Positions 1,576 through 37,076 of a DNA stretch of 43,636 bases are shown here, in pieces. The translations under genes and the position numbers were made by a program. Under the pieces are notes generated by a model. That model was not told the DNA's origin. It saw only the letters and a list, made by a program, of their open reading frames with translations, and did no database searches. Origin of the DNA: a virus; IMG/VR virus record IMGVR_UViG_3300027396_000050, positions 1-43,636 of that record. The stretch is one strand, 5' to 3'. Position 1 is the stretch's first letter. Every line of letters starts with the position of its first letter.

Positions 1576-1830
1576 GTGAACAGACGAATTCAAAAACTTG
1601 CAATAGAAGCTGGCTTGAGCCATATGCCAAGCAATTGCCCTGATATGGCGGACTTATATAAGGGAGCCGATTTTGAATTAGAGAAATTCGCCGAGCTGCT
1701 TGTTTCTAAGTGTATTTCGGCAGTTTATTGTTCCAACATCAAAGAAAAGAAACAAGAAGCAGTAATTAGAGATATGCTGCATAACGTTTTTGGTGATGCT
1801 TATTATCAGCAAGAGGAAAGTCAAACATGA
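1576..1830 (+). CDS. FAELI-family small early protein (GTG start)
   Basis: An 84-aa protein. The GTG at 1576 is chosen because GGAGG at 1565-1569 lies 6 bases upstream and the encoded MNRRIQKLAIEAG matches the family N-terminus. The core is LEKFAELLVSKC at about residues 34-45. The C-terminal HFGVE is degenerate (NVFGDAYYQQEESQT). The next gene overlaps its stop by 4 bases (ATGA), so the two are probably translationally coupled. Function is unknown. Confidence 0.85.
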   Translation: MNRRIQKLAIEAGLSHMPSNCPDMADLYKGADFELEKFAELLVSKCISAVYCSNIKEKKQEAVIRDMLHNVFGDAYYQQEESQT

Positions 1831-2039
1831 ATTCCTTAAATGAGCAGTTGCAACAGCTAGCAGATGACGCAGAGGACTATGCTGATGACGCGGTTGACAT
1901 TGGAGGAGAATTCCATACAGCGTACACCAAAAAATTATGTGAGTTGATTGTTAAACGGTGTTGCGATGTGCTGTACGACAATGAACTTGGAAATTATCAG
2001 GTTAATTACGTGTTAAAAGAACATTTTGGAATTGAATGA
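1827..2039 (+). CDS. FAELI-family small early protein
   Basis: A 70-aa, very acidic protein (ADDAEDYADDAVDIG in the N-terminal half). The core is diverged to TKKLCELIVKRCC, and the C-terminus KEHFGIE is typical. Its start overlaps the previous stop, with GAGGAAAG upstream as ribosome-binding site. The codons for FGIE supply the GGA ahead of the next start. Function is unknown. Confidence 0.85.
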   Translation: MNSLNEQLQQLADDAEDYADDAVDIGGEFHTAYTKKLCELIVKRCCDVLYDNELGNYQVNYVLKEHFGIE

Positions 2040-2305
2040 TGAACATCGGAAAACAGTTAATTCAAGAACTTTCCGAACAAGCTAAAAAATATGCTCGTTC
2101 ACATGTTGCTGATTGTGAGAGATATGGCTATTATATGGAAGACAATGAATTTCAATTAAGATTTGAAGAAAAATTCGCAGAGCTTATTGTTAACGAATGC
2201 ATCAAATGCGCTGAATGGGAAGTTATTAGAAATGGTGACACTGAACATAATCGTGCGTGTGGTAAAGTGCGCAGTTCTATGATTAAACGTTTTGGAATTG
2301 AATGA
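2036..2305 (+). CDS. FAELI-family small early protein
   Basis: An 89-aa protein with two possible adjacent starts (ATGATG at 2036 and 2039); the second gives the usual MN start. The insert between N-terminal helix and core is longer than usual and tyrosine-rich. The core EEKFAELIVNEC and the C-terminus KRFGIE are standard. The gene before overlaps by 4 bases and the gene after begins within its stop. Function is unknown. Confidence 0.85.
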   Translation: MMNIGKQLIQELSEQAKKYARSHVADCERYGYYMEDNEFQLRFEEKFAELIVNECIKCAEWEVIRNGDTEHNRACGKVRSSMIKRFGIE

Positions 2306-2646
2306 TGATCTCAGTTAATATTCTAGAAGACCTGGACAAAATTGAAAAAGATGATTGGGTTCGACAACTCAACTTAATCTATACGGGCCAAAGTGATTAT
2401 CTGCAAACTAATGCCACATACGGTGGCATGCCTATGAACCGTATGAGGTGGATACCTGCTTGGGCCTTTTGTCCCGCTTGGGTAGGAAAAACAGTAGGAG
2501 AATTTAGACGAGAGATGTTGAAAAGAGACAGGCATGCAACAGAAATGAGCGATTACGAATTTGTCCGCGGTGACGTGCCGAAACGACATAAGGAGTCGTT
2601 GACAGCAGAAGAAATTAAAATTGCTCGAATGATTTGGGAAAAATGA
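2302..2646 (+). CDS. Hypothetical protein, 114 aa
   Basis: Starts at ATG 2302 (or 2305) inside the stop region of the upstream family gene, using the GGA in its FGIE codons as ribosome-binding site. It is not a FAELI member. It has a tryptophan/proline-rich middle (MRWIPAWAFCPAWVGKTVGEF) and a charged C-terminal helix (TAEEIKIARMIWEK). It shows that an unrelated gene can be slotted into the coupled array. Function is not recognised. Confidence 0.75.
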   Translation: MMISVNILEDLDKIEKDDWVRQLNLIYTGQSDYLQTNATYGGMPMNRMRWIPAWAFCPAWVGKTVGEFRREMLKRDRHATEMSDYEFVRGDVPKRHKESLTAEEIKIARMIWEK

Positions 2647-2837
2647 TGAATAAAAATTTACGAAATATGATTGAACGTGCAGAAACCAAGGAACATGGGT
2701 ATTATTTCTTTGATAGAGAAAAATTTGCAGAATTGATTATTGAAAGATGCATTGATATTGTCAGCAATGGTGGAGAATTTGCTAGTCGACCCAAGTTAGT
2801 TGAAAAACTTAAAGAACATTTTGGGGTTAAAGAATGA
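2646..2837 (+). CDS. FAELI-family small early protein
   Basis: The start at 2646 is preferred over the in-frame TTG at 2634 because it gives the family-typical MNKNLRNMIERA and overlaps the preceding TGA. The protein is 63 aa, one of the shortest. The core REKFAELIIERC follows a short FYF-rich linker, and the C-terminus is KEHFGVKE. Its last codons (GGGG then AAAGA) serve as ribosome-binding site for the next gene. Confidence 0.85.
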   Translation: MNKNLRNMIERAETKEHGYYFFDREKFAELIIERCIDIVSNGGEFASRPKLVEKLKEHFGVKE

Positions 2838-3028
2838 AAAAGCAAGAATTTAAAATTACAAACATTAATTCTGGATTCAGTACTTACTTTTTCGAACACG
2901 ACTTACATTCGGCAGCCTATCATGTTGAGCGATATATCGTAAGAAACAAGGGCAAGTTTCGAATGGCTGTTTACCGTGTAAATGAATCATCTTTTGGGCC
3001 TAGGTGGATTTTACTAAGAACAGAATAA
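2834..3028 (+). CDS. Hypothetical protein, 64 aa
   Basis: Overlaps the previous FAELI gene by 4 bases (ATGA) and relies on its 3' end for a ribosome-binding site. The sequence (MKKQEFKITNINSGFSTYFF, later MAVYRVNESSFGPRWILL) suggests a small alpha/beta protein. It is basic overall. It is the last gene of the 1576-3028 unit and faces the convergent minus-strand gene at 3087. The 58-base gap between them has only a weak GCTG/CAGC hairpin. Confidence 0.75.
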   Translation: MKKQEFKITNINSGFSTYFFEHDLHSAAYHVERYIVRNKGKFRMAVYRVNESSFGPRWILLRTE

Positions 3029-3086
3029 TGCAAAACAATATTTATTTTAGCTGAGGCTTTAAGTAGCAGCTTACGTGTGCAGTAAA

Positions 3087-3629
3087 TTAATAATTTTCTA
3101 CCTTAGTAATTTCTAGTATCTCAGGATTAAAACAGATGAAGTGTTTAACGCCAGCACTTGGTAGAATAAACCCATCATATTTAAGATTTGTCGTCAAAAT
3201 ATTCAACCACTCCTTTGGAGTCTCTCTGTAAAAATCGTACCACACCTGTTCAAGCATTTCGCGAAATTTATTAGGACCCCAGCGATCATATATTGCTCTT
3301 GATGCTTTTGCGATAGCAATTTCTGGTTTTTGGTCCCAGTCCTGAAGAATATCTTCTTTATTCGGAGATAGATTAATTAGCTCTTTAATTGTTAATATTG
3401 AAAATGATTTTTTTTCCGGAACAAGTCTTGGCGATCTAATTGTTTTTACGGTGTGTACAATATTACCATAATGCAGCGCATCATCAATTGAGTTCGTTAA
3501 ATAAATGCCTGGACCTTCTTGATCTGTTGCATCAGCTTTGCCAACATTGTCAAGATTAAATCGCTTTATTTCCGCGGTTGAACCGTGATACCATGTCTCA
3601 TTGTTTTCGGTTAGTTCACATAATAACAT
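3087..3629 (-). CDS. ADP-ribosyltransferase-like protein, late-expressed
   Basis: A 180-aa protein with the layout of ADP-ribosyltransferase-fold proteins of phages and polyvalent effectors: WYHGS at residues 13-17 (NAD-binding H15), GPGIYLTNSIDDALHYG at 39-55 (Y43 of the H-Y pair) and a final strand KHFICFNPEIL near 162-172. The third catalytic position, usually Glu or Gln before the last strand, reads K/H here, so chemistry is uncertain. It is the only minus-strand gene in the early region and has its own T4-type late promoter. Late expression would suit packaging into the virion, as with T4 Alt; that part is inference. Confidence 0.7.
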   Translation of the reverse strand: MLLCELTENNETWYHGSTAEIKRFNLDNVGKADATDQEGPGIYLTNSIDDALHYGNIVHTVKTIRSPRLVPEKKSFSILTIKELINLSPNKEDILQDWDQKPEIAIAKASRAIYDRWGPNKFREMLEQVWYDFYRETPKEWLNILTTNLKYDGFILPSAGVKHFICFNPEILEITKVENY

Positions 3630-3665
3630 GTTTAATACTTTCTTCCAAAAATTATAACTTGGTAT

Positions 3666-3673
3666 TATTTATA
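3666..3673 (-). promoter_or_regulatory. T4-type late promoter TATAAATA (minus)
   Basis: The minus strand reads TATAAATA here, a perfect match to the T4 late consensus, 37 bases upstream of the start of the ADP-ribosyltransferase-like gene. Bases 3674-3775 hold a loose AGAGCAT/ATGCTCT inverted repeat and no gene. Confidence 0.7.
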
Positions 3674-3775
3674 TTTTGGAGTACCTTTATACCGCGAATA
3701 GCGATCTACGATATTCTTCTAGATGAAGAGCATGCCAGAGAGAAGGCCATTTATTAGAAAAATGCTCTGTCACAA

Positions 3776-3864
3776 TGTGAACTAGTCAACATTTTTAGTG
3801 TACATTTCTCATGCTTATGGTATAATATGTCTATTGACTAATTCATTCGGAAGATTGAAAATGA
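3776..3864 (+). repeat. 89-bp promoter/leader direct repeat, copy 1
   Basis: Matches 4811-4899 over 89 bases with seven substitutions and no gaps. It contains a promoter: TGTACA at 3799-3804, 16-base spacer, extended -10 TGG-TATAAT with TATAAT at 3821-3826. It then has a leader with the GGAAG ribosome-binding site and ends on the start codon of the next gene. The whole control region has been copied as a unit. Confidence 0.9.
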
Positions 3865-4211
3865 GCATGAATGTTTTTATCGTTGCTGAACGTGAAATCT
3901 TCTTTAAGCTGGCAGATGGTTCAATTGGCCACGATGTTCAGCGACTTAAGTTTGATGCATGGCAAACCAGAACTGAAGAAACAAACCGTATCCTGGCTTC
4001 CGAAAACCCTGCAGCTGCATACATTGCATGGGTTGAAGCCCGCAACAATCCTACAAAAGTTCCAGTCTTTGCTGATGAAGACATCTTTGGTGAAGGCGAA
4101 CCTGTAGGTTTTAAGACAGTGTGTGAAGCCACAGAGCATGTTAAATGTCTTCGAGACTGGATGAGTGCAGCAGAAGCTAAGGGCTACGTCGTCAAATTTG
4201 AAATGATCTGA
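3861..4211 (+). CDS. Hypothetical early protein, 116 aa
   Basis: The start at 3861 is chosen because GGAAG lies 8 bases upstream; the frame is open back to 3798, but that would place coding sequence on top of the promoter. The protein starts MSMNVFIVAEREIFFKLADG and contains VFADEDIFGEGEPVGF in the middle. The C-terminus (LRDWMSAAEAKGYVVKFEMI) looks like a helix plus strand. It is probably a small globular alpha/beta protein. Function is unknown. Confidence 0.8.
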   Translation: MSMNVFIVAEREIFFKLADGSIGHDVQRLKFDAWQTRTEETNRILASENPAAAYIAWVEARNNPTKVPVFADEDIFGEGEPVGFKTVCEATEHVKCLRDWMSAAEAKGYVVKFEMI

Positions 4212-4234
4212 GATTTGGGAGTCTGCTGAAATCA

Positions 4235-4441
4235 ATGAATAAACTAATTCAAAAACTTGCGTATGAAAGTGCACGGGCAGTAGACGTAAACTTGATGACT
4301 CAAGATCCAGCATTTGTAGAAAAATTTGCCGAGTTACTTATTCAAAAATGCGCTCTAGCTCTAGATGAAACAATAGCTCCAACAAGCTGTCCTTTAAATG
4401 GCATTGGTTACAAATTAAAGAATCATTTCGGGATTGAATAA
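4235..4441 (+). CDS. FAELI-family small early protein
   Basis: A 68-aa protein: N-terminal MNKLIQKLAYESA, core VEKFAELLIQKC, then a linker with TSCPLNG and the C-terminal LKNHFGIE. It lies 23 bases after the previous gene with a GGGAG site unusually far (13 bases) upstream. It is a singleton separated from the main array by one unrelated gene and the second promoter copy. Confidence 0.85.
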   Translation: MNKLIQKLAYESARAVDVNLMTQDPAFVEKFAELLIQKCALALDETIAPTSCPLNGIGYKLKNHFGIE

Positions 4442-4452
4442 AGTAAACAAAC

Positions 4453-4788
4453 ATGAGTAACTATACGCCAGACCGATGGGTGGTGATCAAGATTTCTCAC
4501 GGTGAAAATATCGTGTACAAAGTATTTGCATGTTGGTATGGCGGCTACGCCGGAGGAGATTCATGGAAGATGAATTCGGGGATCACCGGTGTAGTAGAAG
4601 AAAACAATTACTACGTTTTTTCCGGCGCCAGCGGGTCTACATACACCTGCCACAAGGAACACTATGGGGTTAACCTGTATGGACAAGGTGTACTCAGCAG
4701 CTTGATCGCGCAGGCAGGAGAACTTGGCGCAACCATTGAAATTATGCATGAGGATACTGTTTTCACTGAGATGATTTTTCCGATTTAG
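4453..4788 (+). CDS. Conserved phage protein of unknown function, 111 aa
   Basis: Starts MSNYTPDRWVVIKI, then WYGGYAGGDSWKMNSGITGV and YYVFSGASGSTYTCHKEHYG. From memory this matches a family of about 100-110 aa that is common in environmental phages and has no assigned role. It looks like a compact beta-rich globular protein with many aromatic residues. No catalytic motif is evident. It follows the FAELI gene at 4235 by 11 bases and precedes the second copy of the repeated promoter. Confidence 0.8.
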   Translation: MSNYTPDRWVVIKISHGENIVYKVFACWYGGYAGGDSWKMNSGITGVVEENNYYVFSGASGSTYTCHKEHYGVNLYGQGVLSSLIAQAGELGATIEIMHEDTVFTEMIFPI

Positions 4789-4810
4789 CAAAGTTCACCA
4801 AATTGATTAG

Positions 4811-4899
4811 TGTGAACTAGTCAACATTTTTAGTGTATATTTCTCATGCTTATGGTATAATAGGCCTATCGATCAATTCATTTGGAAGATTGAAAATGA
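4811..4899 (+). repeat. 89-bp promoter/leader direct repeat, copy 2
   Basis: The second copy of the control region at 3776-3864. The -10 TATAAT (4856-4861), its extended TGG and the GGAAG site are unchanged. The -35 is weaker (TGTATA at 4834-4839). It drives the main FAELI array. Substitutions cluster downstream of the -10, which points to selection on the promoter core. Confidence 0.9.
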
Positions 4900-5126
4900 T
4901 GAACGAACAAATCAAACAACTTGCTAAACAGGCTGGTGGAGAATTTTACGAAGGATTTGCTGGAAGCCCAAACTCCGTCAAGTTTACAGAAGACGAATTT
5001 CAAAAGTTCGTCGAGCGGCTTGTTCGTGTATGTGCTGGCGTTACTGAAGAATATCGTGGCACTGCATGGGGCAAGGCCGCTGAATGTATTGGTGATTCAA
5101 TCAAACAACATTTTGGAGTTGAATAA
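4896..5126 (+). CDS. FAELI-family small early protein, first gene of main array
   Basis: The start is ATGATG at 4896/4899; the second gives MNEQIKQLAKQAG, the typical N-terminus. The frame is open back to 4833 across the promoter, which is rejected as coding. The core is FQKFVERLVRVC and the C-terminus IKQHFGVE. Its FGVE codons place GGAG 7 bases before the ATG of the next gene, which shares the last A of its stop. Unknown function. Confidence 0.88.
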   Translation: MMNEQIKQLAKQAGGEFYEGFAGSPNSVKFTEDEFQKFVERLVRVCAGVTEEYRGTAWGKAAECIGDSIKQHFGVE

Positions 5127-5329
5127 TGAACGAACAAATTAAAGAACTATGGCGTGAATCTGTATTGAAACACACAAAAGATCCCATGAACTGGCAGACT
5201 GTTGCTGACGAATTTGCCGAGTTGATTGTTCGGGCATGTGCTCAGTTTGTTGAAGATAAGTTTGATTTTGTCGGTGAAGAAATCCTCGTCAAAGAAAAGA
5301 TGTTGGAACATTTCGGAGTTGAAGAATGA
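5126..5329 (+). CDS. FAELI-family small early protein
   Basis: A 67-aa protein: MNEQIKELWRESV, core ADEFAELIVRAC and C-terminus LEHFGVEE. Acidic. The first 13 bases are nearly the same as in the preceding gene, consistent with recent tandem duplication. Both gene junctions are overlapping. Unknown function. Confidence 0.9.
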   Translation: MNEQIKELWRESVLKHTKDPMNWQTVADEFAELIVRACAQFVEDKFDFVGEEILVKEKMLEHFGVEE

Positions 5330-5568
5330 ACGAAGAATTACTACAACGATTAGAGAAAGAGGCAGAAAAAATAACTCTTGATATGCCAGCAAGTTTGCAT
5401 GATAGAGAATTCACCCAGGTATTTAATCTGGAGTTTGCTAGGTTAATTGTAGAGGAATGTGTCAACGTATGCGATAAGATTTATTTTGATCGTTACGCCG
5501 ATGCCGAAGATTGGGAACGTAGTGAAGAAGGTGACGCTATCAAAAAACATTTCGGAGTTGAAGAATGA
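5326..5568 (+). CDS. FAELI-family small early protein
   Basis: An 80-aa protein: MNEELLQRLEKEAEK, a slightly changed core NLEFARLIVEECVNVC, then KIYFDRYADAEDWERSEEGD and C-terminus IKKHFGVEE. It overlaps both neighbours by 4 bases. Strongly acidic. Unknown function. Confidence 0.9.
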   Translation: MNEELLQRLEKEAEKITLDMPASLHDREFTQVFNLEFARLIVEECVNVCDKIYFDRYADAEDWERSEEGDAIKKHFGVEE

Positions 5569-5786
5569 ACGAACGAATTCGTGAACTTAAAGAGCAGGCT
5601 ACTAAAGAAATCTGGGGTAATGACCCGTTTAATGGTGCTCCAAGTTTTGAAGGGTATGAATTAGACGAAGAAAAGTTCGCCGAGCTGATCGTGAGAAAAT
5701 GTGCAAAGGTTGCCAATGAAAATGTAGGACTTTTCACTCCAGGTTGTGGTAATTCTGTGTTAGAACATTTTGGAGTTGAAGAATGA
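5565..5786 (+). CDS. FAELI-family small early protein
   Basis: A 73-aa protein: MNERIRELKEQATKEI, variable linker WGNDPFNGAPSFEGYE, core EEKFAELIVRKCAKV and C-terminus LEHFGVEE. The linker before the core and the segment after it are where members differ most. ATGA overlaps lie at both ends. Unknown function. Confidence 0.9.
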   Translation: MNERIRELKEQATKEIWGNDPFNGAPSFEGYELDEEKFAELIVRKCAKVANENVGLFTPGCGNSVLEHFGVEE

Positions 5787-6040
5787 ATAAAAAACTTAAA
5801 GAACTAACAGAAGTGGTAAGATTTAATCTTGATATGGATGGATCAATGGAACCAGATGAACACGGTCGTTGGATCCATTATGATGATTTAGAAAAGTTGA
5901 CCGAGTTGATTGTGAGAAAATGTGCTAAAGTTAGTGAAGATGATATTACTGACGGTGATGCATGTTGCACCAATACTGCATATCGCATTGCCAGACAGAT
6001 TAAGAAACATTTCGGAGTTGAAGATGAGGTTGAAGAATGA
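5783..6040 (+). CDS. FAELI-family small early protein with extended C-terminus
   Basis: An 85-aa protein: MNKKLKELTEVV, core LEKLTELIVRKCAKV and C-terminus KKHFGVEDEVEE. The four extra C-terminal residues come with a second purine-rich GAGG before the next ATG, so the ribosome-binding site is restored at normal distance despite the extension. ATGA overlaps lie on both sides. Unknown function. Confidence 0.9.
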   Translation: MNKKLKELTEVVRFNLDMDGSMEPDEHGRWIHYDDLEKLTELIVRKCAKVSEDDITDGDACCTNTAYRIARQIKKHFGVEDEVEE

Positions 6041-6252
6041 ATGAAAAACTTAAAGAACTTGCGCTAAAGGCTGGTCTAGGCGATCATCTTTGGTTGGATA
6101 TTCCAGGATCAGAAGATGTTCAAGTTACAGAAAAGTTCGCCGAATTGATTGTCAGAGAATGTGCAGATATAGGAAATAAGGCCTATAACGATATTGGCAA
6201 TTACACTTATATCGGCGATAAAATCAAACAGCATTTTGGAGTTGAAGAATGA
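6037..6252 (+). CDS. FAELI-family small early protein
   Basis: A 71-aa protein: MNEKLKELALKAGLG, core TEKFAELIVRECADI and C-terminus IKQHFGVEE. It is close to the family consensus and a good reference member. It overlaps both neighbours by 4 bases. Unknown function. Confidence 0.9.
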   Translation: MNEKLKELALKAGLGDHLWLDIPGSEDVQVTEKFAELIVRECADIGNKAYNDIGNYTYIGDKIKQHFGVEE

Positions 6253-6521
6253 ATAAAAAACTTAAAGAACGTGTTGAACAGATTGATCCAACAATCTATG
6301 ACCAACTTGATGCCAACGTGTTAGATCCATTTCTACACCAGTATGCTGAGGCGCTGGTTGACGAAATTTATTCTAAAGTGAGAGAAGAACTGATTGATGA
6401 TGCAGACATTATGGCTCAACCAGATCCTGAAGATAGGCGTTATTTACAAGGTTGCAACGGCGGAACGGTGGATGCGTTATTTCATATTATGAATGTTTTA
6501 CATGAAGATGAAGACGTTTAA
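6249..6521 (+). CDS. Small early protein, FAELI-like N-terminus with diverged body
   Basis: A 90-aa protein. The start MNKKLKERVEQID and the coupled junction are those of the family, but the core reads LHQYAEALVDEIYSKV with no cysteine at the usual place, and HFGVE is absent (ends LHEDEDV). It is either a diverged paralogue or an unrelated gene that took over a family start. Its lack of the C-terminal motif coincides with the end of the array: the next gene does not overlap and has a poor ribosome-binding site. Confidence 0.8.
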   Translation: MNKKLKERVEQIDPTIYDQLDANVLDPFLHQYAEALVDEIYSKVREELIDDADIMAQPDPEDRRYLQGCNGGTVDALFHIMNVLHEDEDV

Positions 6522-6524
6522 TCA

Positions 6525-6764
6525 ATGAATAAAATTTTTCAAAAATTCTTTAGATCTATCCACTCATCCTGGATATTATATGGTTTTTGGGGATACATAT
6601 TTGTTATAGTGCAATGCGTATACACGCTAATCACAAATGTTGTTGAAAAAGTTTATGAAATCAATAACAAACTTAAGATACAATATCTCATTGTAAAATA
6701 TCCTCACCTCAAAAGATTGCAAAAACTAGCAGGGACTAAAAATGAAAAATCGTCATGGAAATGA
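6525..6764 (+). CDS. Small membrane protein, 79 aa
   Basis: One hydrophobic segment at about residues 16-38 (WILYGFWGYIFVIVQCVYTL is its centre) is preceded by a short basic N-terminus and followed by a basic, helical C-terminal half, suggesting a single-pass inner-membrane protein. It overlaps the next gene by 23 bases in another frame. No holin signature can be claimed: it lies in the early region, away from the lysis genes at 37-39.5 kb. Function unknown. Confidence 0.7.
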   Translation: MNKIFQKFFRSIHSSWILYGFWGYIFVIVQCVYTLITNVVEKVYEINNKLKIQYLIVKYPHLKRLQKLAGTKNEKSSWK

Positions 6765-6987
6765 ATATCATTTTGAAAAGGTTGATGAAAACGTTTATAC
6801 TATCGTCGGCGATCTTGATTATTGGAGATACGGTGGTAGAGAAGGTCAACCTAACATTGACTGGAATGACCTAGGATTTGTGGATCCTAGCGGCGGGCCA
6901 TTTATTGGCCTCGGCAGCCTGATTGATGGCCGCAAAATTACTCGTATTCGCGTAGAGAACGAAAAGATTTTGTTTGAAGTAGAATAA
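6742..6987 (+). CDS. Conserved phage protein of unknown function, 81 aa
   Basis: Starts MKNRHGNEYHFEKVDENV and contains GDLDYWRYGG and LGFVDPSGGPFIGLGSLIDG. From memory these phrases are typical of a small family widespread in large phages and their hosts, with no known role. AGGGA in the upstream coding sequence lies 8 bases before the ATG. The protein appears all-beta and acidic. It is the last gene before a 125-base gap with a candidate promoter. Confidence 0.82.
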   Translation: MKNRHGNEYHFEKVDENVYTIVGDLDYWRYGGREGQPNIDWNDLGFVDPSGGPFIGLGSLIDGRKITRIRVENEKILFEVE

Positions 6988-7049
6988 GAAGTAAGACAAA
7001 TCATAGTTCGCAATTCCAAGACTGAAAATTAGAACTCTGACTAAAAGTA

Positions 7050-7079
7050 TTGTACTTTTTTCATAAAGTATGATAGGAT
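7050..7079 (+). promoter_or_regulatory. Candidate sigma70-like promoter (TTGTAC-18-TAGGAT)
   Basis: TTGTAC at 7050-7055 and TAGGAT at 7074-7079 with 18-base spacing and an extended -10 TG at 7071-7072. The match is weaker than the promoters at 591 and 1513. It sits 33 bases before the start at 7113, in the only gap of this part (6988-7112). Confidence 0.45.
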
Positions 7080-7112
7080 TCTACATATGTGTTTAGATAA
7101 GGAGATAGTGCC

Positions 7113-7412
7113 ATGAGCGGCGGCCATTTTGACTACGATCAATATCGTATTGATAATATTGCTAATGAAGTTGAACAATTGATTATCATGAATGGTGTTG
7201 AACAAAATACAGGCGAAAATTGGTATGATTATACATTTGTGCAGAATTACTCGCCAGAAGTTATTGAAGAATTTAAAAAGGGTTTAAAAATATTGCGTAT
7301 GGCAACAATTTATGCACAGCGAATTGATTGGCTTGTGTCAGGCGATGATGGTGAAGAACAATTTCTTAAGCGTCTAGCGGCAGACCTCGATGAGTTGGAA
7401 AACAAAAAATAA
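7113..7412 (+). CDS. Conserved MSGGHFDY-type protein, 99 aa
   Basis: Starts MSGGHFDYDQYRIDNIANEV and ends with YAQRIDWLVSGDDGEEQF-x-x-RL. From memory this is the signature of a small family common in phages and prophages; its function is not established. The body is helical and acidic. An AAGGAG site about 9 bases upstream supports the start. A candidate promoter precedes it, so it may head the unit 7113-8322. Confidence 0.85.
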   Translation: MSGGHFDYDQYRIDNIANEVEQLIIMNGVEQNTGENWYDYTFVQNYSPEVIEEFKKGLKILRMATIYAQRIDWLVSGDDGEEQFLKRLAADLDELENKK

Positions 7413-7424
7413 TAGGCGCTTATC

Positions 7425-7553
7425 ATGAAACAATGGACAGTAAAAATATTTAATGGATTTTCTACTAGTGAATTCCAAAGGTATGGCACGTATGAATATG
7501 TGCGTAATTCATTGATCATGCTTCCGCCATCGCATATTTGGAGTATTCAATAA
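7425..7553 (+). CDS. Small conserved-looking protein, 42 aa
   Basis: An ATG at 7425 opens a 42-codon frame ending TAA at 7551-7553, with the next gene starting on the last A of that stop (TAATG). The protein reads MKQWTVKIFNGFSTSEFQRY and ends PSHIWSIQ, a beta-hairpin-like basic sequence. There is little ribosome-binding signal, so support is the exact stop-start coupling and plausible protein sequence. Confidence 0.65.
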   Translation: MKQWTVKIFNGFSTSEFQRYGTYEYVRNSLIMLPPSHIWSIQ

Positions 7554-7789
7554 TGAAATCACAACCTGCCCTTGGCCGGCTTGGCATCCTCATGTACTCA
7601 GCGCTCAATAATAGCTATTTTATTAGAGTTTACGATGAAAATAAACTTAGCATGTTTAAGGACTATGACTTAAAGTTATCTGATTTATGTTTTGAAATTG
7701 CAGATGAGGATGCGTATCTCTATGAAGATGGTGATAAACTTTGGATTGATTACAGCCCTGAGACACTTGGGATAAGCACAGATGAATAG
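7553..7789 (+). CDS. Conserved phage protein of unknown function, 78 aa
   Basis: The start at 7553 (MKSQPALGRLGIL) overlaps the previous stop by one base; an upstream in-frame TTG at 7538 is rejected. The motif DAYLYEDGDKLWIDYSPETL near the C-terminus is, from memory, a recurrent phrase in small phage proteins of this size. It is acidic and mixed alpha/beta. It overlaps the next gene by 8 bases. No function is known to me. Confidence 0.8.
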   Translation: MKSQPALGRLGILMYSALNNSYFIRVYDENKLSMFKDYDLKLSDLCFEIADEDAYLYEDGDKLWIDYSPETLGISTDE

Positions 7790-8123
7790 TTTAATTAGGC
7801 AAATTACGGAAGACGTCATTTCTGACATTGACGTCGTTTATGAGAACAATCCGTTAAATGAAGAATTAGAAAAAATGTACATCCCAGATTGCTTCATTCA
7901 AAAATTTACCGAAGCAATCGTGAAAAAGTGCATAGAACAAATTGGGTTAGAATGTGAAGATTTTGAAAATGGGAATGTTTTTGGAACGCCAGCTGGCGAG
8001 AAACTCTTCCAATCAATTACTCGAGAATATGGCCCAAACAAAGAGCGTGGCTTCAATCCGGTAGCCCTCAGCTTGCATTTTGAAAAAATGCTAAAAGCAA
8101 AATTTGGAGTTAACGATGAATAA
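7782..8123 (+). CDS. Long FAELI-family member, 113 aa
   Basis: N-terminus MNSLIRQITEDV, core IQKFTEAIVKKCIEQI and C-terminus LKAKFGVNDE. An insertion of about 40 residues between the core and the C-terminal motif (with GEKLFQSITREYGPNKERG) makes it the longest family member. Its FGV codons provide GGAG before the next gene, which overlaps by 8 bases. Unknown function. Confidence 0.85.
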   Translation: MNSLIRQITEDVISDIDVVYENNPLNEELEKMYIPDCFIQKFTEAIVKKCIEQIGLECEDFENGNVFGTPAGEKLFQSITREYGPNKERGFNPVALSLHFEKMLKAKFGVNDE

Positions 8124-8322
8124 TAAAAAGTTCAAGCAGCTCGCAACAGAAGCCGGATTATTGACTTATAATCCTACCGGCGAACATACAAAATTAGAAA
8201 AATTTGCAGAATTTATTCTTAGAGATGCCATACGTCAAATTGAAAGGACTGGCGTTTTAGAACAAGATTCTCAGGCGCATATGTACGTAGATACGCTAAG
8301 AGACTATTTTGACGTATTTTGA
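8116..8322 (+). CDS. Last FAELI-family member, 68 aa
   Basis: The start at 8116 is chosen over an in-frame TTG at 8104 because it gives MNNKKFKQLATEAG and sits 6 bases after GGAG. The core is LEKFAEFILRDAIRQI, where the usual cysteine is replaced by alanine, and the C-terminus is degenerate (RDYFDVF). As the last gene of its unit it no longer needs to provide a downstream ribosome-binding site, and the motif is indeed lost. Confidence 0.85.
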   Translation: MNNKKFKQLATEAGLLTYNPTGEHTKLEKFAEFILRDAIRQIERTGVLEQDSQAHMYVDTLRDYFDVF

Positions 8323-22462: not shown

Positions 22463-22490
22463 AAATCGGGGCATTAAACGCCCCCGATTT
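22463..22490 (+). terminator. Hairpin, probable terminator
   Basis: A 9-bp stem AAATCGGGG (22463-22471) with CCCCGATTT (22482-22490) and a 10-base loop. The stem ends one base before the late promoter GATAAATA, and there is no separate U-run, so termination may be partial. Confidence 0.6.
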
Positions 22491-22498
22491 GATAAATA
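22491..22498 (+). promoter_or_regulatory. Late promoter GATAAATA
   Basis: A NATAAATA octamer immediately after a hairpin and 38 bases before the start at 22537. Confidence 0.6.
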
Positions 22499-22536
22499 TT
22501 ACAACATATACCTATTATGCCCAAAGGATCTATAAA

Positions 22537-24693
22537 ATGCTCGCGTTAAAATTGACTACTGCTTCTTCTGGTAGAATATTACTACTAAGTTCTTACACGC
22601 CTCCAGGACCAATAGAGGTATCAACCGGCAATGAATTAACATCTTTTTCAGTATTCTTTGATGGGGAAGTTGGTACTACTGCTACGCTAAATAACACGTA
22701 TATTGATTCTTCACCAAATAATTTAACAGTAACTGCTTCTAGTAATTTGTGGGGTCAAAGTTCTTTTAGTCCATTTGGCAAACAAGGGTGGTGTGCCTCT
22801 TTTGATGGGTCCAATTCTTTAGTTTCTTTTGGCAACACACCCGTCGGCGTTAGGTATCCGCAATTCAGTTTCATGCATAATTCAACCGCAACATTCACTT
22901 ATGAGTGTTGGATTTTCAGAGAAACTAGCGTTGCTAATACATTAATAGATAATACTGATAATACTATAAACACGAATACAGGAACTCGAATTGGTATATA
23001 TGCAGCTAGCGTAAACACGACAAGTAATAAATTATACATGCAAGTAGTTGGTACTACAAACACTCTCGCGGTTGATGCACGTTCTTCATCAGAAATTGCA
23101 CTAAACACCTGGACACATATTGCAGTCACATATGATCGCTCAATTATAACCGGTACTGCAAAAATTTATATCAACGGAATTTTAGATGGAGTAGCAGACA
23201 GAGGACCGGGTAATCCTAATGATTTAGGTTCCAGGTCTCCATTATACATAGGTCTAAGCAAAGTTAACGGCTCTGGGCAGTTTCAGGGCGCAATGTCTGA
23301 TTTGAGAATTTCAAATACTGTTTTATATAACTCAAATTTCACGCCTCCGACTGCACCAGTAACTGCGTCGTCAGCAACTACTGCACTTTTAACTTTCCAG
23401 CATCAAAATAGTAGAGTTGTAGATAATAGTGTGAATAATTACACTCCTGACAACATGGTTGGTAATAGAGCAGACCAAGGCACTGGTTCTAAGTTTTCTA
23501 TTTCTCCTGGGAGTCCATATAAATTTTCATTATACACGTCTTCCACAGGCGGTTCTATGTGTTTAGCAAATGCAACTTATCTAACAGTTTCGTCTTCAAC
23601 GGCGTTAGTTTTAGGTTCAGATGATTTCACTATTGACTGTTGGGTCTATACATACACGGCCGGCGCAGATTTGCCAGAGTATGATCCACCATTATTATCT
23701 AGATTAGACACTAGAGCAAATCGTAATTTTTATATATCTTATAATAGGCGTTTAGGTTTTGGAACTTCTACAGCGCGTACGTTTGAATCATCGATAGAAG
23801 TTCCGGGTGATCAATGGACGCATGTCGCTGTTGAAAGAAGTAGCAACACCATGAGACTTTATATTAACGGCGTGATCGCCGGCACAACAACAACAAATCT
23901 TCCGGTTTTAACACAGCAAAATAATTTGATAATCGGTCGTGGTGCGGATCTATCTCGTGGAGCGATTGATGGATATATTAGCGATTTTAGAATAACCAAA
24001 GGTGTTGCGATGTTTAATGGAGCATTTACGCCTCCGACGAGCATGGCTACAGCAACTGCACAGACAAGCTTATTATTGAATTTTACAAATGGCGCCGCGA
24101 TTGATGTGACAGGTAAAAATGTGTTTAGTTTCCCTGCTACTCCATTAGGCTCAAATCAAACATTAATTGATTCTTCAGTTAAGAAAAATGGAAACGCGAG
24201 TTTGAGATTTGGCGACGGAGGCTATGCACAAGTCAAGCCGGGAAGGAGTACTATAAACTTTGGAACAGCAAATTTTACTATAGAATTTTGGGTCAACTTC
24301 AGGGCGCCGTGGGCAGCAGGCAAACGCCTAGTATCATATAACCATGCCGGCAGCGCAACAAGAACTAATAATCCACTCTTGATTCAAACGGAAACAAATA
24401 AAATCGGATTATATGCAACTTCCGATGGTTCATCATGGAATATCGCAAACAATCTTACTGTTTTTTCTGGTACGCCAACAACTAGTGTGTGGCACCATTT
24501 AGCTGTAACACGAAATGGCAACACAATAAGAACTTTTGCAAATGGAACGCTGGTGAGCAGCACGTCTACATCATTGGCACTGGTGAGAGTAACAACTCCG
24601 GTGTTAACATTTGGTTCTGCAGAATGTTATATTGATGATTTTAGAATTTATAAAGGCTACGCAAAGTACATTGACAGTTTCACGCCAGAATAA
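22537..24693 (+). CDS. LamG-domain adhesin A, 718 aa
   Basis: The start at 22537 is chosen over an in-frame codon at 22489 because AAAGGA lies 8 bases upstream and MLALKLTTASSGRILL matches two sister proteins; 22489 overlaps the late promoter. After a short leader with ELTSFSVFFDGEVGTT come three LamG-like domains centred near residues 118 (TFTYECWIF), 363 (DFTIDCWVY) and 578 (NFTIEFWVNF), each with the W-x-H-x-A-V-x-R/Y strand and an Asn-Gly turn. Probably binds host glycan or another fibre. The C-terminal domain contains a 214-bp block identical to its neighbour. Confidence 0.87.
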   Translation: MLALKLTTASSGRILLLSSYTPPGPIEVSTGNELTSFSVFFDGEVGTTATLNNTYIDSSPNNLTVTASSNLWGQSSFSPFGKQGWCASFDGSNSLVSFGNTPVGVRYPQFSFMHNSTATFTYECWIFRETSVANTLIDNTDNTINTNTGTRIGIYAASVNTTSNKLYMQVVGTTNTLAVDARSSSEIALNTWTHIAVTYDRSIITGTAKIYINGILDGVADRGPGNPNDLGSRSPLYIGLSKVNGSGQFQGAMSDLRISNTVLYNSNFTPPTAPVTASSATTALLTFQHQNSRVVDNSVNNYTPDNMVGNRADQGTGSKFSISPGSPYKFSLYTSSTGGSMCLANATYLTVSSSTALVLGSDDFTIDCWVYTYTAGADLPEYDPPLLSRLDTRANRNFYISYNRRLGFGTSTARTFESSIEVPGDQWTHVAVERSSNTMRLYINGVIAGTTTTNLPVLTQQNNLIIGRGADLSRGAIDGYISDFRITKGVAMFNGAFTPPTSMATATAQTSLLLNFTNGAAIDVTGKNVFSFPATPLGSNQTLIDSSVKKNGNASLRFGDGGYAQVKPGRSTINFGTANFTIEFWVNFRAPWAAGKRLVSYNHAGSATRTNNPLLIQTETNKIGLYATSDGSSWNIANNLTVFSGTPTTSVWHHLAVTRNGNTIRTFANGTLVSSTSTSLALVRVTTPVLTFGSAECYIDDFRIYKGYAKYIDSFTPE
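24363..24576 (+). repeat. Identical 214-bp block, copy 1
   Basis: Base-for-base identical to 26654-26867 by direct reading, while sequence just outside differs. It encodes the middle of the last LamG domain in both adhesins. Confidence 0.92.
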
Positions 24694-24836: not shown

Positions 24837-26987
24837 ATGTTAGCACTAAAATTAACTGTCGCTTCTGCCGGAAGAATACTGCTGTTGAGCGCTTATGCCC
24901 CGCCCGGCCCAATACAAGTTCCAACTGGCGATGAACTAACGTCTTTTTCATTATTCATCGACGGTGAAGTTGGCACCACGGCTACGCTAAATAACAGATT
25001 TATCGATTCTTCACCAAATAATTTAACAGTGACGGCAACTTTTGCTACTGAACAGATATCGCAGAGCGCCTTTAGTCCATTTGGCACTCATGGTTGGTGT
25101 GGACGTTTTGCTTCCGGCGCTAGTTATTTAGAATTTGGTCACGCCGTGAGTTCTAGATATCCGCACTTCGATTTTATGCATAATTCTACTGCAACATTCA
25201 CATTTGAGTGTTGGTTTTATCGGGAAACAGACACTGAGTCTAGATTAATAGAAAATACTATGAATCTGAATACTAATACTGGAACTCGTATTGGCATATA
25301 CGCAACCAGCGCGAATACAACAAGCAACAAACTATTCATGCAAGTAGTTGGTACTACAAGCACTCTTGCTGTCGATGTTCGTTCTTCGTCAGAAATTGCA
25401 CTAAATACATGGACACATGTTGCTGTCACATATGACCGCTCAATTATAACAGGCACTGCAAAAATTTATATCAACGGAATTTTAGATGGAGTAGCAGACA
25501 GAGGAGCCGGTAATGCAAATAACGTGAGCGCGCGATATCCATTGGCTGTTGGTGGTTCTGGCAATATAAGTTCAAATGGCTACACAGGCACGATCGCAGA
25601 TTTGAGAATCTCAAATGCCGTTTTATATAATTCCAATTTTACTTTGCCAACTTCACCAGTAACTGCGTCATCAGCAACTACAAAACTTTTAATTCTACAG
25701 CATCAGAATAGTAGAATCATGGACAACAGTATAAACAATTTTACATGCACGCAAGTCGCTGCCTCGTTCGCGGGTGCTATTGTGCCTGGTAGCCCATACA
25801 AATTTACAATGTACTCATCTTCAACTGGAGGGTCTGCTTACATTGACGGCCAAGCTTTAATAGTTTCATCATCAACGTCATTAGTTATAGGCGAATCCGA
25901 TTTTACGATCGATTGTTGGGTATATATGCGATTGACGAGAACCGGTTCTGGTGTATCTTTTGATCCGGCAATAGTATCAGGTTTACATTCTGGAGTTAAT
26001 CGCAATTTTTATATTTCTGGTGTTTCTGGCAGTTTAGGGTTTGGCACTTCTACAACACGAACGTTCGAAACACCAAATCAGATTCCAATTTATCAATGGA
26101 CGCATGTTGCTGTAGAAAGAAGTGGCGGCACAATGAGGCTTTATGTTAATGGGAAAACCGAAGCTACAACTTCAACAAATCTGCCTAATTTAACGCAACA
26201 GAATAATTTAGTAATTGGTGTAGGTAGAGATTTATCTACGGGAAATCTGCGTGCCCATATTAGTGATTTGCGAATTATTAATGGGCAAGCATTATTTAAT
26301 GGCGACTTTACGCCACCAACAAGCATGTCTACCGCCACTTCAGGAACAAGTCTATTATTGAATTTTACTAATGGCGCGTGGATTGACAAGACGGGTAAAA
26401 GTACGCTGTCTGTTTATGCTGCTGCTGGCGCGGTGACAGGGATTAATTCTTCGGTTTATAAAAATGGAAATGCTAGTTTAAGATTTGCAAACGGCAACTT
26501 CGCGTTCATTAGACAAGGATTAACTACTATAGACCTCAAAAAATCAGATTTTACTATAGAATTTTGGATCAACTTTGTGACGTATCTAACTGGTTCAGCA
26601 TCATCAAATAGGAAATACTTAGTGTGTTATAACAGGAACGGTGGCGCAACAATAACTAATAATCCACTCTTGATTCAAACGGAAACAAATAAAATCGGAT
26701 TATATGCAACTTCCGATGGTTCATCATGGAATATCGCAAACAATCTTACTGTTTTTTCTGGTACGCCAACAACTAGTGTGTGGCACCATTTAGCTGTAAC
26801 ACGAAATGGCAACACAATAAGAACTTTTGCAAATGGAACGCTGGTGAGCAGCACGTCTACATCATTGTCATTGTTAACGCCTGGCGCAGATACAGAAATG
26901 ACAATTGGTTCTGCAGAATGTTATATTGACGATTTTAGAATTTATAAAGGCTACGCAAAGTACACTGATAGCTTCACGCCTGAATAA
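24837..26987 (+). CDS. LamG-domain adhesin B, 716 aa, paralogue of adhesin A
   Basis: Starts MLALKLTVASAGRILLLSAY and follows the layout of adhesin A through its whole length: leader with ELTSFSLFIDGEVGTT, then three LamG-like domains (TFTFECWFY, DFTIDCWVYM, DFTIEFWINF). Both end with CYIDDFRIYKGYAKY and SFTPE. Divergence is uneven: the second domain differs most, and the third carries an identical DNA block. It has its own late promoter and a hairpin on each side. It is likely to be a second receptor-binding variant in the same structure. Confidence 0.87.
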   Translation: MLALKLTVASAGRILLLSAYAPPGPIQVPTGDELTSFSLFIDGEVGTTATLNNRFIDSSPNNLTVTATFATEQISQSAFSPFGTHGWCGRFASGASYLEFGHAVSSRYPHFDFMHNSTATFTFECWFYRETDTESRLIENTMNLNTNTGTRIGIYATSANTTSNKLFMQVVGTTSTLAVDVRSSSEIALNTWTHVAVTYDRSIITGTAKIYINGILDGVADRGAGNANNVSARYPLAVGGSGNISSNGYTGTIADLRISNAVLYNSNFTLPTSPVTASSATTKLLILQHQNSRIMDNSINNFTCTQVAASFAGAIVPGSPYKFTMYSSSTGGSAYIDGQALIVSSSTSLVIGESDFTIDCWVYMRLTRTGSGVSFDPAIVSGLHSGVNRNFYISGVSGSLGFGTSTTRTFETPNQIPIYQWTHVAVERSGGTMRLYVNGKTEATTSTNLPNLTQQNNLVIGVGRDLSTGNLRAHISDLRIINGQALFNGDFTPPTSMSTATSGTSLLLNFTNGAWIDKTGKSTLSVYAAAGAVTGINSSVYKNGNASLRFANGNFAFIRQGLTTIDLKKSDFTIEFWINFVTYLTGSASSNRKYLVCYNRNGGATITNNPLLIQTETNKIGLYATSDGSSWNIANNLTVFSGTPTTSVWHHLAVTRNGNTIRTFANGTLVSSTSTSLSLLTPGADTEMTIGSAECYIDDFRIYKGYAKYTDSFTPE
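26654..26867 (+). repeat. Identical 214-bp block, copy 2
   Basis: The partner of 24363-24576. A shorter identical stretch of about 51 bases is shared by the first LamG domains (within 23150-23210 and 25450-25510). Confidence 0.92.
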
Positions 26988-36317: not shown

Positions 36318-37076
36318 ATGACAAAATTATTTGAATTTGGTAAACAAGAATATGATTTGGGGATTGTTTTAGATTCTGGAAATCAAGAACACCCATGCAC
36401 GCTTTCGTTATACGCATTTAAATATTTTGTTACAATCAAATTGCCAAGGTTGATTTGGCCTGCCAAAGCACGTCGTGATTACACTTCAATAGATGGAAAA
36501 CGAACAACATATTTTGATTTTCACAACCGGGTATTTGGCTTTGTAGTTTATGAAGAAAATGTTCACGCATATTATGGTAAAAGATCATTTGATTCATGGC
36601 TTGATTCAAAAGTTAAACTGTTTGGGATTCCATGGAGGCAAACGCGAAGAGTCAGATATGATTTTTATACGCCAAATCAAGAACATTTTTGTTCCATTAA
36701 TAGTGAATTAAAGTTTGACGATGAATATTCTGCAATCAAAGAAGCCGAGAAAAAAGTTCCAAAGTTAGTAATATCATTTGATGATTTTGATGGTGAGAAA
36801 ATCATAGCGTGTTGTTATATTGAAGAGATGGAATGGCGAAAAGGCACGGGTCTTTTTAAATGGGTGAACTATATCACTAAACCAATAATTGCGCGATCAC
36901 TCGTGTACGTATTTAATAAAGAAGTTGGAAGAACAAAGAATAGTTGGAAAGGTGGGATTGTTTCTAGTTCAATTAGAATAAAAGAAGGTGATAACATTCT
37001 TGAAGTTTTTGAAAATCATCTCAAAAATGGTAAAGTATTTAAAATTGAGTCACCAAACTGCAAAATACTAGGTTAA
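36318..37076 (+). CDS. Hypothetical protein, 252 aa
   Basis: The only plus-strand gene between two minus-strand late units. It starts MTKLFEFGKQEYDLGIVLD after GGCGGAG and contains a tryptophan/tyrosine-rich middle (DFHNRVFGFVVYEENVHAYYG, given as two parts FGFVVYEENV and HAYYGKRSF), then SWLDSKVKLFGIPWRQTRRV. No catalytic motif is recognised. Its sigma70-like promoter suggests early or middle expression, unlike its neighbours. Its TAA overlaps the stop of the opposing lysin gene by 4 bases. Confidence 0.78.
   Translation: MTKLFEFGKQEYDLGIVLDSGNQEHPCTLSLYAFKYFVTIKLPRLIWPAKARRDYTSIDGKRTTYFDFHNRVFGFVVYEENVHAYYGKRSFDSWLDSKVKLFGIPWRQTRRVRYDFYTPNQEHFCSINSELKFDDEYSAIKEAEKKVPKLVISFDDFDGEKIIACCYIEEMEWRKGTGLFKWVNYITKPIIARSLVYVFNKEVGRTKNSWKGGIVSSSIRIKEGDNILEVFENHLKNGKVFKIESPNCKILG

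Follow-up and report, generated by a model that had tools for sequence, protein, structure and literature searches.

The question raised by the DNA considered here is why many small genes of a phage should share not merely protein motifs, but the very codons that encode them. The stretch analysed (the window in what follows, taken at its full length) is a linear virus record of 43,636 bases, IMG/VR record IMGVR_UViG_3300027396_000050, the first 8.3 kb of which contain a run of small genes laid out as start block, V1, middle block, V2 and end block, V1 and V2 being variable segments. In the original prediction the end-block codons for FGVE were suggested to have a role in the RNA, as the ribosome-binding site of the next gene, each gene thus forming a cassette. 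The answer that now appears quite probable is that half-gene modules form a pool shared among phages at large and recombine at short blocks, and that the block at the junction of two genes would carry the ribosome-binding site of the second. What can be read directly from the letters is a family of genes that overlap, a ribosome-binding sequence found independently of reading frame, blocks conserved as DNA, V1 and V2 segments that assort freely, and similarity that ends at the blocks.

A profile (A1) was built from 11 proteins of the window, and IMG/VR was scanned with four back-translated middle-block patterns; together with the window and one contig (L126, the single yield of a scan of genome contigs, the other loci being IMG/VR contigs) this gave at least 407 stretches, amounting to 3.6 Mb. 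All the family-wide counts below come from these stretches, that is, from among the matches listed; L-numbers denote loci, and for loci on the minus strand the coordinates run along the reverse complement. The family, which it had been proposed to seek in related phage genomes, is represented by at least 1,101 member open reading frames (ORFs; duplicates counted) in at least 394 of the 407 stretches, with a median length of 76 amino acids (mostly 60–95), while in 38 mostly large records searched whole (contigs up to 364 kb) members were present in 37, with at most 14 in each. Membership for tests of the C-terminus was decided using a profile that stops at the middle block, so that the C-terminus was left free. 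The resulting 1,068 hits reduce to 904 unique closed ORFs with a usable start (339 stretches), to 870 members having more than 200 nucleotides (nt) downstream, and to 609 that have all three blocks and sufficiently long V1 and V2 segments, these last being the set used for the shuffling test.

The end block as a ribosome-binding sequence

In 696 of the 870 members an ATG ORF of at least 40 codons starts between -10 and +6 relative to the stop, 490 of them at -4 and 146 at -1. Where an ATG or GTG start lies in this interval (773 members), a Shine-Dalgarno-like 4-mer is found at 3–11 nt in 668, as compared with 5.6% at random, and GGAG, where it occurs, stands 7 nt from the start in 498 of 562 cases and 4 nt from it in 50. 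Members with a following start that lack FG followed by V or I (FG[VI]) have some other Shine-Dalgarno-like 4-mer at 3–11 nt in 91 of 136 cases, again against 5.6% of random positions. The coupling itself, we infer, would proceed by termination-reinitiation.

The choice of codon within the motif is strongly biased, the glycine of FG[VI] being encoded by GGA in 95% of 715 cases, whereas for glycines in general, as counted over 1,601 long ORFs from these stretches, GGA accounts for 21%. Coupled members have FG[VI] in 658 of 812 cases and strictly uncoupled members in 28 of 58 (Fisher p 9e-8); the glycine codon is GGA in 629 of those 658 and in 23 of those 28 (p 0.0095). The strict class of 58 was used instead of a first class of 103, consisting mostly of short ORFs or GTG starts, and in a few of its rows a very short ORF still overlaps the end by ATGA. 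These figures make the expectation that the motif is kept only when coupled too strong. Isolated members equally conserved, with codons other than GGAG, had originally been named as the result that would tell against an RNA role; what is found is that FG[VI] is less frequent when uncoupled, but that most of the uncoupled members having it still use GGA.

Evidence of a different kind comes from the sequence GGAGTTGAA(GA/TA)ATG, which occurs ahead of an ORF in 394 unique copies. In 320 of them a family gene reads the sequence as GVE, and 74 lie outside such a reading. Of these 74, 34 are in a non-family ORF that is open for at least 45 codons in the GVE frame; a further 20 fall short of 45 open codons there but reach that length in another frame, and for the last 20 no upstream frame is open so far. 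Among the 40 copies with fewer than 45 open codons in the GVE frame, 21 have at most 10 open GVE-frame codons (the rest having 17–40) and three stand directly after a stop codon, while in nine a family gene reaches or crosses the copy in another frame, six of these nine reading ..TFRS-stop. Judging from these copies, the putative ribosome-binding sequence persists where the protein frame overlying it is lost. Taken together, the codon bias, the coupling and the frame tests support the suggestion that the FGVE codons have a role in the RNA.

It could be that FGVE is instead kept purely for the protein, for instance in capping the last helix or packing the core, with GGAG arising simply from codon choice. 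Consistent with this, F and G are invariant in alignment A3 (where, though, 72 of the 80 rows were chosen to carry the motif), and 28 of the 58 uncoupled members keep FG[VI]. Such an explanation is nonetheless very improbable indeed, given the excess of GGA over its background, the occurrence of the 14-mer in a different frame, behind a stop codon or where a gene outside the family ends, and the substitutions LGVEG, YGVEE and FGAEE, all of which alter the protein motif and retain GGAG.

A scan for the junction sequence gave at least 137 unique junctions among the matches listed. In 104 of these 137 the gene upstream belongs to the family and is read in the GVE frame; a different ORF occupies that frame in 19, and in 14 there is neither. 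The downstream gene belongs to the family in 133. Some variants were also seen. A junction of the form GGAGTTGAATCGTGA, leading to a GTG start and a protein end HFGVES, recurs in L087, L143, L302, L342, L172, L366, L345 and L070, and in L086 and L117 members without a close ATG gene have CCCTACAGGTTGACAGGTCT directly after the stop. At L174:8125 (+ strand) and in L420, a hydrophobic protein, otherwise unrelated, has been joined to the start block MNERIKKI of the family, with the usual ribosome-binding sequence ahead of it, which is a case of start-block capture by another gene.

Three conserved blocks and the exchange of V1 and V2

Conservation at the level of DNA is not confined to the end block. 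Arginine 4 of the start block is encoded by CGA in 87.5% of cases (13.6% in the background), while in the middle block the preferred codons are GCC for A (78%), GAG for E (86%), TTG for L (84%) and AAG for K (87%), for which the background values are 22, 30, 23 and 39% respectively; codon choice in the end block is skewed likewise. Across 4,000 random pairs of members, identical residues are encoded by the same codon in 72% of cases in the start block, 71% in the middle block and 80% in the end block, as against 45% in V1 and 50% in V2. Where modules are shared at 50–85% amino-acid identity their own codons agree in just 55–59%, implying that the modules have drifted and the blocks have not. 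The middle block has no role as a start signal, and so must be held by something besides translation initiation; a ribosome-binding site alone therefore cannot explain the pattern. Outside family frames the middle-block DNA (allowing two mismatches) occurs in only 2 of 692 cases, so that, unlike the junction, it is rare elsewhere.

The segments lying between the blocks assort independently of one another. Pairs among the 609 members were prefiltered by shared 3-mers, leaving 5,756. V1 is shared (at least 70% identity) in 369 pairs, in 323 of which V2 is unrelated (below 35%), and V2 is shared in 356 pairs, in 315 of which V1 is less than 35% identical; both are shared in 37. For comparison, 1,000 random V2 pairs have a median identity of 18% and a 95th percentile of 30%. 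There are 389 V1 types, 387 V2 types and 580 combinations of the two, more than one V2 partner being found for 102 of 106 recurrent V1 types and more than one V1 partner for 107 of 118 recurrent V2 types.

Breakpoints were located using DNA alignments of the genes with their flanks, at 85% identity or more and covering most of one segment (a first all-against-all count of DNA endpoints, dominated by matches of the blocks themselves, was replaced by this one). Matches restricted to V1 end between -9 and +38 nt around the FAELIV codons in 292 of 315 cases, and those restricted to V2 begin between -9 and +27 nt around the same codons in 246 of 280, whereas only 28 alignments span both halves. The junction contains the outer ends of 232 of the 315 and 211 of the 280, and 67 and 61 extend to the edge of the fragment. 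It is in these results that the idea of whole-gene cassettes, with FGVE codons doubling as a ribosome-binding site and no exchange of half genes, meets its difficulty: the junction sequence and the coupling geometry on which it builds are real, but independently assorting V1 and V2 and breakpoints within the middle block contradict it, as does the fact that the middle block, having no ribosome-binding role, is constrained as closely as the start block (71 versus 72% codon identity). Exchange of whole genes only is accordingly improbable; the cassette of the original prediction was right in itself, but what is moved is half of a gene and not just complete genes.

The shared halves have median identities of 91.7% (V1) and 90.4% (V2), and are completely identical in just 58 of 315 and 48 of 280 cases. 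Since the loci are IMG/VR contigs but for one genome-bin contig, and the blocks are repeated, one might suspect that the mosaics are chimeras formed at short repeated blocks during metagenome assembly, and one of 28 example V-sharing pairs (L313/L316) does come from a single metagenome. This is scarcely credible as a general explanation, given that most shared halves have diverged and that the other 27 pairs come from differently numbered metagenomes. Half-only matches of at least 90% connect 223 pairs of loci, of which 156 have no other DNA match within the stretches compared, 35 have less than 500 bp and 32 have 500 bp or more. The same module occurring twice within a locus is not in excess (3 and 2 observed, against a shuffled mean of 1.6), so that there is no sign of spread by local duplication, as fits exchange between phages.

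What agent carries out the exchange is a separate matter. A dedicated site-specific recombinase, or a diversity-generating retroelement, acting on the blocks would account for exchange points at fixed short sequences, but seems distinctly improbable: the ends of the matches are spread over tens of nucleotides rather than falling at one base (though conservation of the blocks blurs this), and the V segments vary in length and are not point-mutated versions of one another but unrelated sequences, which makes them an unlikely target for a diversity-generating retroelement. We infer that homologous recombination causes the exchanges; RecA-family proteins are encoded in 6 of 16 carrier records tried and in 1 of 2 other phage records.

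The mechanism proposed, then, is one of half-gene modules exchanged at blocks. An end block together with the next start block would constitute a junction with GGAG, a 7-nt spacing and ATG, such that an incoming module would either bring or find a working start signal and translation would remain coupled. The blocks, of some 25–45 bp and conserved as DNA, would provide the homology for exchange between phages, and homologous exchange at the middle block and the junction would swap V1 or V2 alone, giving new V1–V2 combinations. Given in-frame blocks and a start signal within the junction, the products would usually be intact and expressed.

Several points weigh against this interpretation. Of the uncoupled members, as already described, 28 of 58 retain FG[VI], 23 of them with GGA. 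None of the 4-mers is present in 60 of the 637 members that have both a following start and FG[VI] (49 of the 60 having FGI), nor in 45 of the 136 without FG[VI], and the ribosome-binding signal is therefore not universal. Part of the 40 copies of the junction sequence with short open frames could belong to short or fragmentary genes, while the use of middle-block patterns to pick loci enriches for members having that block. RecA-family proteins were found in no more than the 6 of 16 carrier records given above, and RecT in 0 of the 18 records tried. In addition, searches of the PDB by sequence and by fold gave no convincing relative or partner (for one model the best Foldseek match had E 6.4, and the best of 8 chains in VIA-align had Z 2.8 and a root-mean-square deviation of 5.0 over 55 aligned residues).

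Structure prediction for several members had been suggested at the outset, and the two models obtained each consist of three helices, at residues 3–11, 28–51 and 59–67 for gene 6037 (pLDDT, the predicted local distance difference test score, 82.8) and 3–15, 23–45 and 51–62 for gene 5126 (pLDDT 87.6). When the blocks are placed on the 6037 model, helix 1 carries the start block and the long helix 2 the middle block, with the end block at the helix 3 tip and in the tail. V1 spans the connection from helix 1 to helix 2, and V2 takes up what remains of helix 2, the connection that follows it and most of helix 3. These predicted structures fit a small scaffold with two variable segments. Among predicted structures from viruses, the best matches (the first with E 0.013 and 35% identity) are to proteins of uncultured phages that have been given no name, and these are probably themselves members of the family. 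It is possible, as a tentative suggestion only, that the proteins are scaffolds presenting their two variable segments to host or defence targets; equally tentatively, unrelated phages may be drawing on an open pool of half-gene modules for binders, each a framework plus two variable segments, against changing hosts and defences.

On that last, tentative reading, short DNA blocks would act simultaneously as a scaffold for the protein, as the point of recombination and as the cassette that starts translation, any exchange at a block would be in frame and expressed, and phages would be drawing on a standing combinatorial library. If the module-exchange explanation is right, phage accessory proteins would be seen to be built combinatorially from a shared half-gene pool by ordinary recombination, with the start signal inside the exchange point, and this would be a concrete case of selection at the nucleotide level acting on coding sequence for both exchange and translation. 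The family, a large one with no recurrent match in the family libraries searched, would also be a place to look for host-takeover or anti-defence binders.

Members, junctions and blocks in the window

About 15 small paralogues had originally been noted in the window. Profile A1 recognises 14 (the weakest with E 9.7e-4), to which the divergent 6249 can be added as a fifteenth; one weak member, at 96–317, falls outside the span 1576–8322 originally described. The members are as follows.

96 to 317, + strand: weak member (profile E 1.5e-6); no FGVE; 17 nt to next gene
1576 to 1830, + strand: member with GTG start; coupled; FGVE lost; GAGG at 10 nt
1827 to 2039, + strand: member; C-terminus HFGIE; V2 89% identical to L262:3486, V1 68% to L349:5610
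2036 to 2305, + strand: member; C-terminus RFGIE
2643 to 2837, + strand: member; C-terminus HFGVKE (GGGG); V1 (13 amino acids) 77% identical to L177:6355
4235 to 4441, + strand: member; C-terminus HFGIE with GGG codon; 11 nt to next gene
4899 to 5126, + strand: member opening the coupled chain; C-terminus HFGVE; further ATG at 4896
5126 to 5329, + strand: member; V2 82% identical to L057:6011; best V1 match at most 41%
5326 to 5568, + strand: member; C-terminus HFGVEE
5565 to 5786, + strand: member; C-terminus HFGVEE
5783 to 6040, + strand: member carrying a C-terminal extension; GAGG 7 nt ahead of the next ATG; V2 93% identical to L194:6788
6037 to 6252, + strand: member; C-terminus HFGVEE; predicted three-helix protein
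6249 to 6521, + strand: divergent member missed by profile A1; start block kept, middle block degenerate, C-terminal motif lost
7782 to 8123, + strand: divergent member; FGVNDE; GGAG 6 nt before the 8116 ATG; V1 59% identical to L064:2407
8116 to 8322, + strand: uncoupled member; FGVE lost; V1 67% identical to L040:3567

The blocks that could be delimited as DNA are these, a junction block comprising end codons, ribosome-binding site and next start codons.

5103 to 5150, + strand: junction block (DNA motif families D1, D3, D4)
5303 to 5350, + strand: junction block
5542 to 5589, + strand: junction block
5760 to 5807, + strand: junction block
6029 to 6061, + strand: junction block, GAGG form (family D4)
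6226 to 6273, + strand: junction block
5669 to 5711, + strand: middle block, EKFAELIVRKC codons (families D2, D5)
1680, 2167, 2717, 4318, 5000, 5206, 5890, 6129 and 8196: further copies of the middle block (families D2, D5)

Within the chain, gene 5126 starts at -1 relative to the preceding stop and genes 5326, 5565, 5783, 6037 and 6249 at -4, so that the claim that each gene of the run 5126–6252 starts on or inside the stop of its predecessor holds throughout, with overlaps of 1 or 4 nt. GGAG was likewise correctly placed 7 nt before the next ATG (after 4899, 5126, 5326, 5565 and 6037), and the GAGG expected after the extended member 5783 is indeed there, also at 7 nt. Only 10 of the 891 ATGs on the + strand of the window have GGAG at this spacing, and the pattern in the chain is therefore not due to chance. 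As for the statement that members followed by an uncoupled gene lose the motif, both 6249 and 8116 lack it, but ‘uncoupled’ suits 8116 (52 nt from the next gene) better than 6249, which lies just 3 nt from its neighbour. There are exceptions to the general pattern: 4235, with the next gene 11 nt away, retains FGIE using a GGG codon; 1827 and 2036 are coupled yet have FGIE, i.e. GGAA; 2643 carries GGGG; 7782 has its GGAG 6 nt ahead of the 8116 start, within an 8-nt overlap; and 1576 is coupled without FGVE, having GAGG at 10 nt.

The window takes part in the exchange described above, V2 being common to 5126 and L057, 5783 and L194, and 1827 and L262, and V1 to 1827 and L349, while 2643, 7782 and 8116 have V1 segments in common with other loci (59–77%). 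The V2 segment of 6249 is 44% identical to L057:8555 and L399:479, and the remaining members that were split into segments (all but 4899) gave no match above 46% for either module.

Known systems, database searches and neighbouring genes

The nearest parallels known, on the accounts given in the passages cited, are of several kinds. In HsdS of Type I restriction, target recognition domains are exchanged by recombination at conserved regions, and there too each gene has two variable segments flanked and separated by conserved DNA (PMC3077401); the phage family differs in comprising proteins of about 76 amino acids in multicopy phage arrays, with no HsdS family match (none among 80 members in Pfam, and PADLOC Specificity_II at E 0.0023 in 1 of 80). 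In addition, its V1 is not found in the V2 slot (best identity 47% among 1,594 pairs sharing a 4-mer), and its outer block also carries the next start signal. Translational coupling of overlapping genes through an intragenic Shine-Dalgarno motif is described in PMC6728339, the likeness being in the short start-stop overlaps and the Shine-Dalgarno sequence in the end of the upstream gene; here, by contrast, the motif belongs to a DNA block that recurs across hundreds of genes, and non-family genes too can end with it. By analogy, then, the family would seem to work like HsdS domain exchange combined with coupling via an intragenic Shine-Dalgarno sequence, but outside the HsdS family.

Short conserved boundary sequences at module borders have been proposed as points of homologous recombination in mosaic phages (PMC3029335), and similarity in the present family also ends at short conserved sequences at gene borders (the 232 of 315 and 211 of 280 outer ends mentioned above), but it has a second conserved block inside the gene, and it is halves that are exchanged. 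Ongoing shuffling of protein fragments between phages, or domain mosaicism, is reported in PMC10684548, whereas the family considered here shuffles at blocks conserved as DNA and shows no recurrent match to PHROG. The tail-fibre adhesin Gp38 of T-even phages, with four hypervariable segments and five glycine-rich motifs (PMC12529663), may be likened to it, by description only, as another case of hypervariable segments between conserved motifs. Boundary sequences and domain mosaicism are already known in general; here it is the pool of half-gene modules that constitutes the larger finding.

At E ≤ 0.01, no family of Pfam, PADLOC or PHROG matched more than one of 80 scanned members. Among 50,697 phage records, blastn and megablast searches with two parts of the window gave no match and tblastn with three members found no member, one query matching nothing at all, the best hit (E 0.2) being in an unverified faecal phage record not recognised by the family profile and two others having E 10. 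A 101-nt junction query matched 142 phage records, all at E 0.9 or worse; of three that were inspected, the ‘uncultured phage’ and Erwinia stretches contain no family member, and the Rheinheimera one is a non-family protein. In open-licence literature, searched for the motif strings in full text and by topic, no description of this family or mechanism, or of half-gene exchange at a junction doubling as a start signal, was found, the single full-text hit being a paper on heart rate. The Rheinheimera hit (L413:4790-5035, phage Barba19A) is a gene whose product ends in EHLGGEE, with AGGAGG ahead of an overlapping ATG, and is apparently a convergent intragenic Shine-Dalgarno sequence.

Finally, some other features of the window may be mentioned. 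Two 89-nt copies, at 3776–3864 and 4811–4899, are 92% identical, contain TATAAT preceded by TG and lie upstream of genes 3861 and 4899; they are probably a duplicated promoter, judging by these letters, while promoter-like sites in a scan of the window were not in excess (24 against 28 in shuffles). Also inside the small-gene run, at 3087–3629 on the minus strand, there is a weak match to an ART-PolyVal ADP-ribosyltransferase, under the Pfam cut-off. Elsewhere the window encodes tailed-phage genes (baseplate-like, primase, DnaB-type helicase and exonuclease). The protein encoded at 36318–37076 belongs to Pfam PF25187 (E 1.1e-36), the inhibitor Acb3 of the cyclic-oligonucleotide-based antiphage signalling system (CBASS), so that the phage does carry an anti-defence gene outside the small-gene run. 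The adjoining large proteins encoded at 22489–24693 and 24837–26987 match the same PHROG families (phrog_3545, phrog_24074 and phrog_13163), the second having three Laminin_G_3 stretches, and are likely to be duplicated tail or baseplate proteins.

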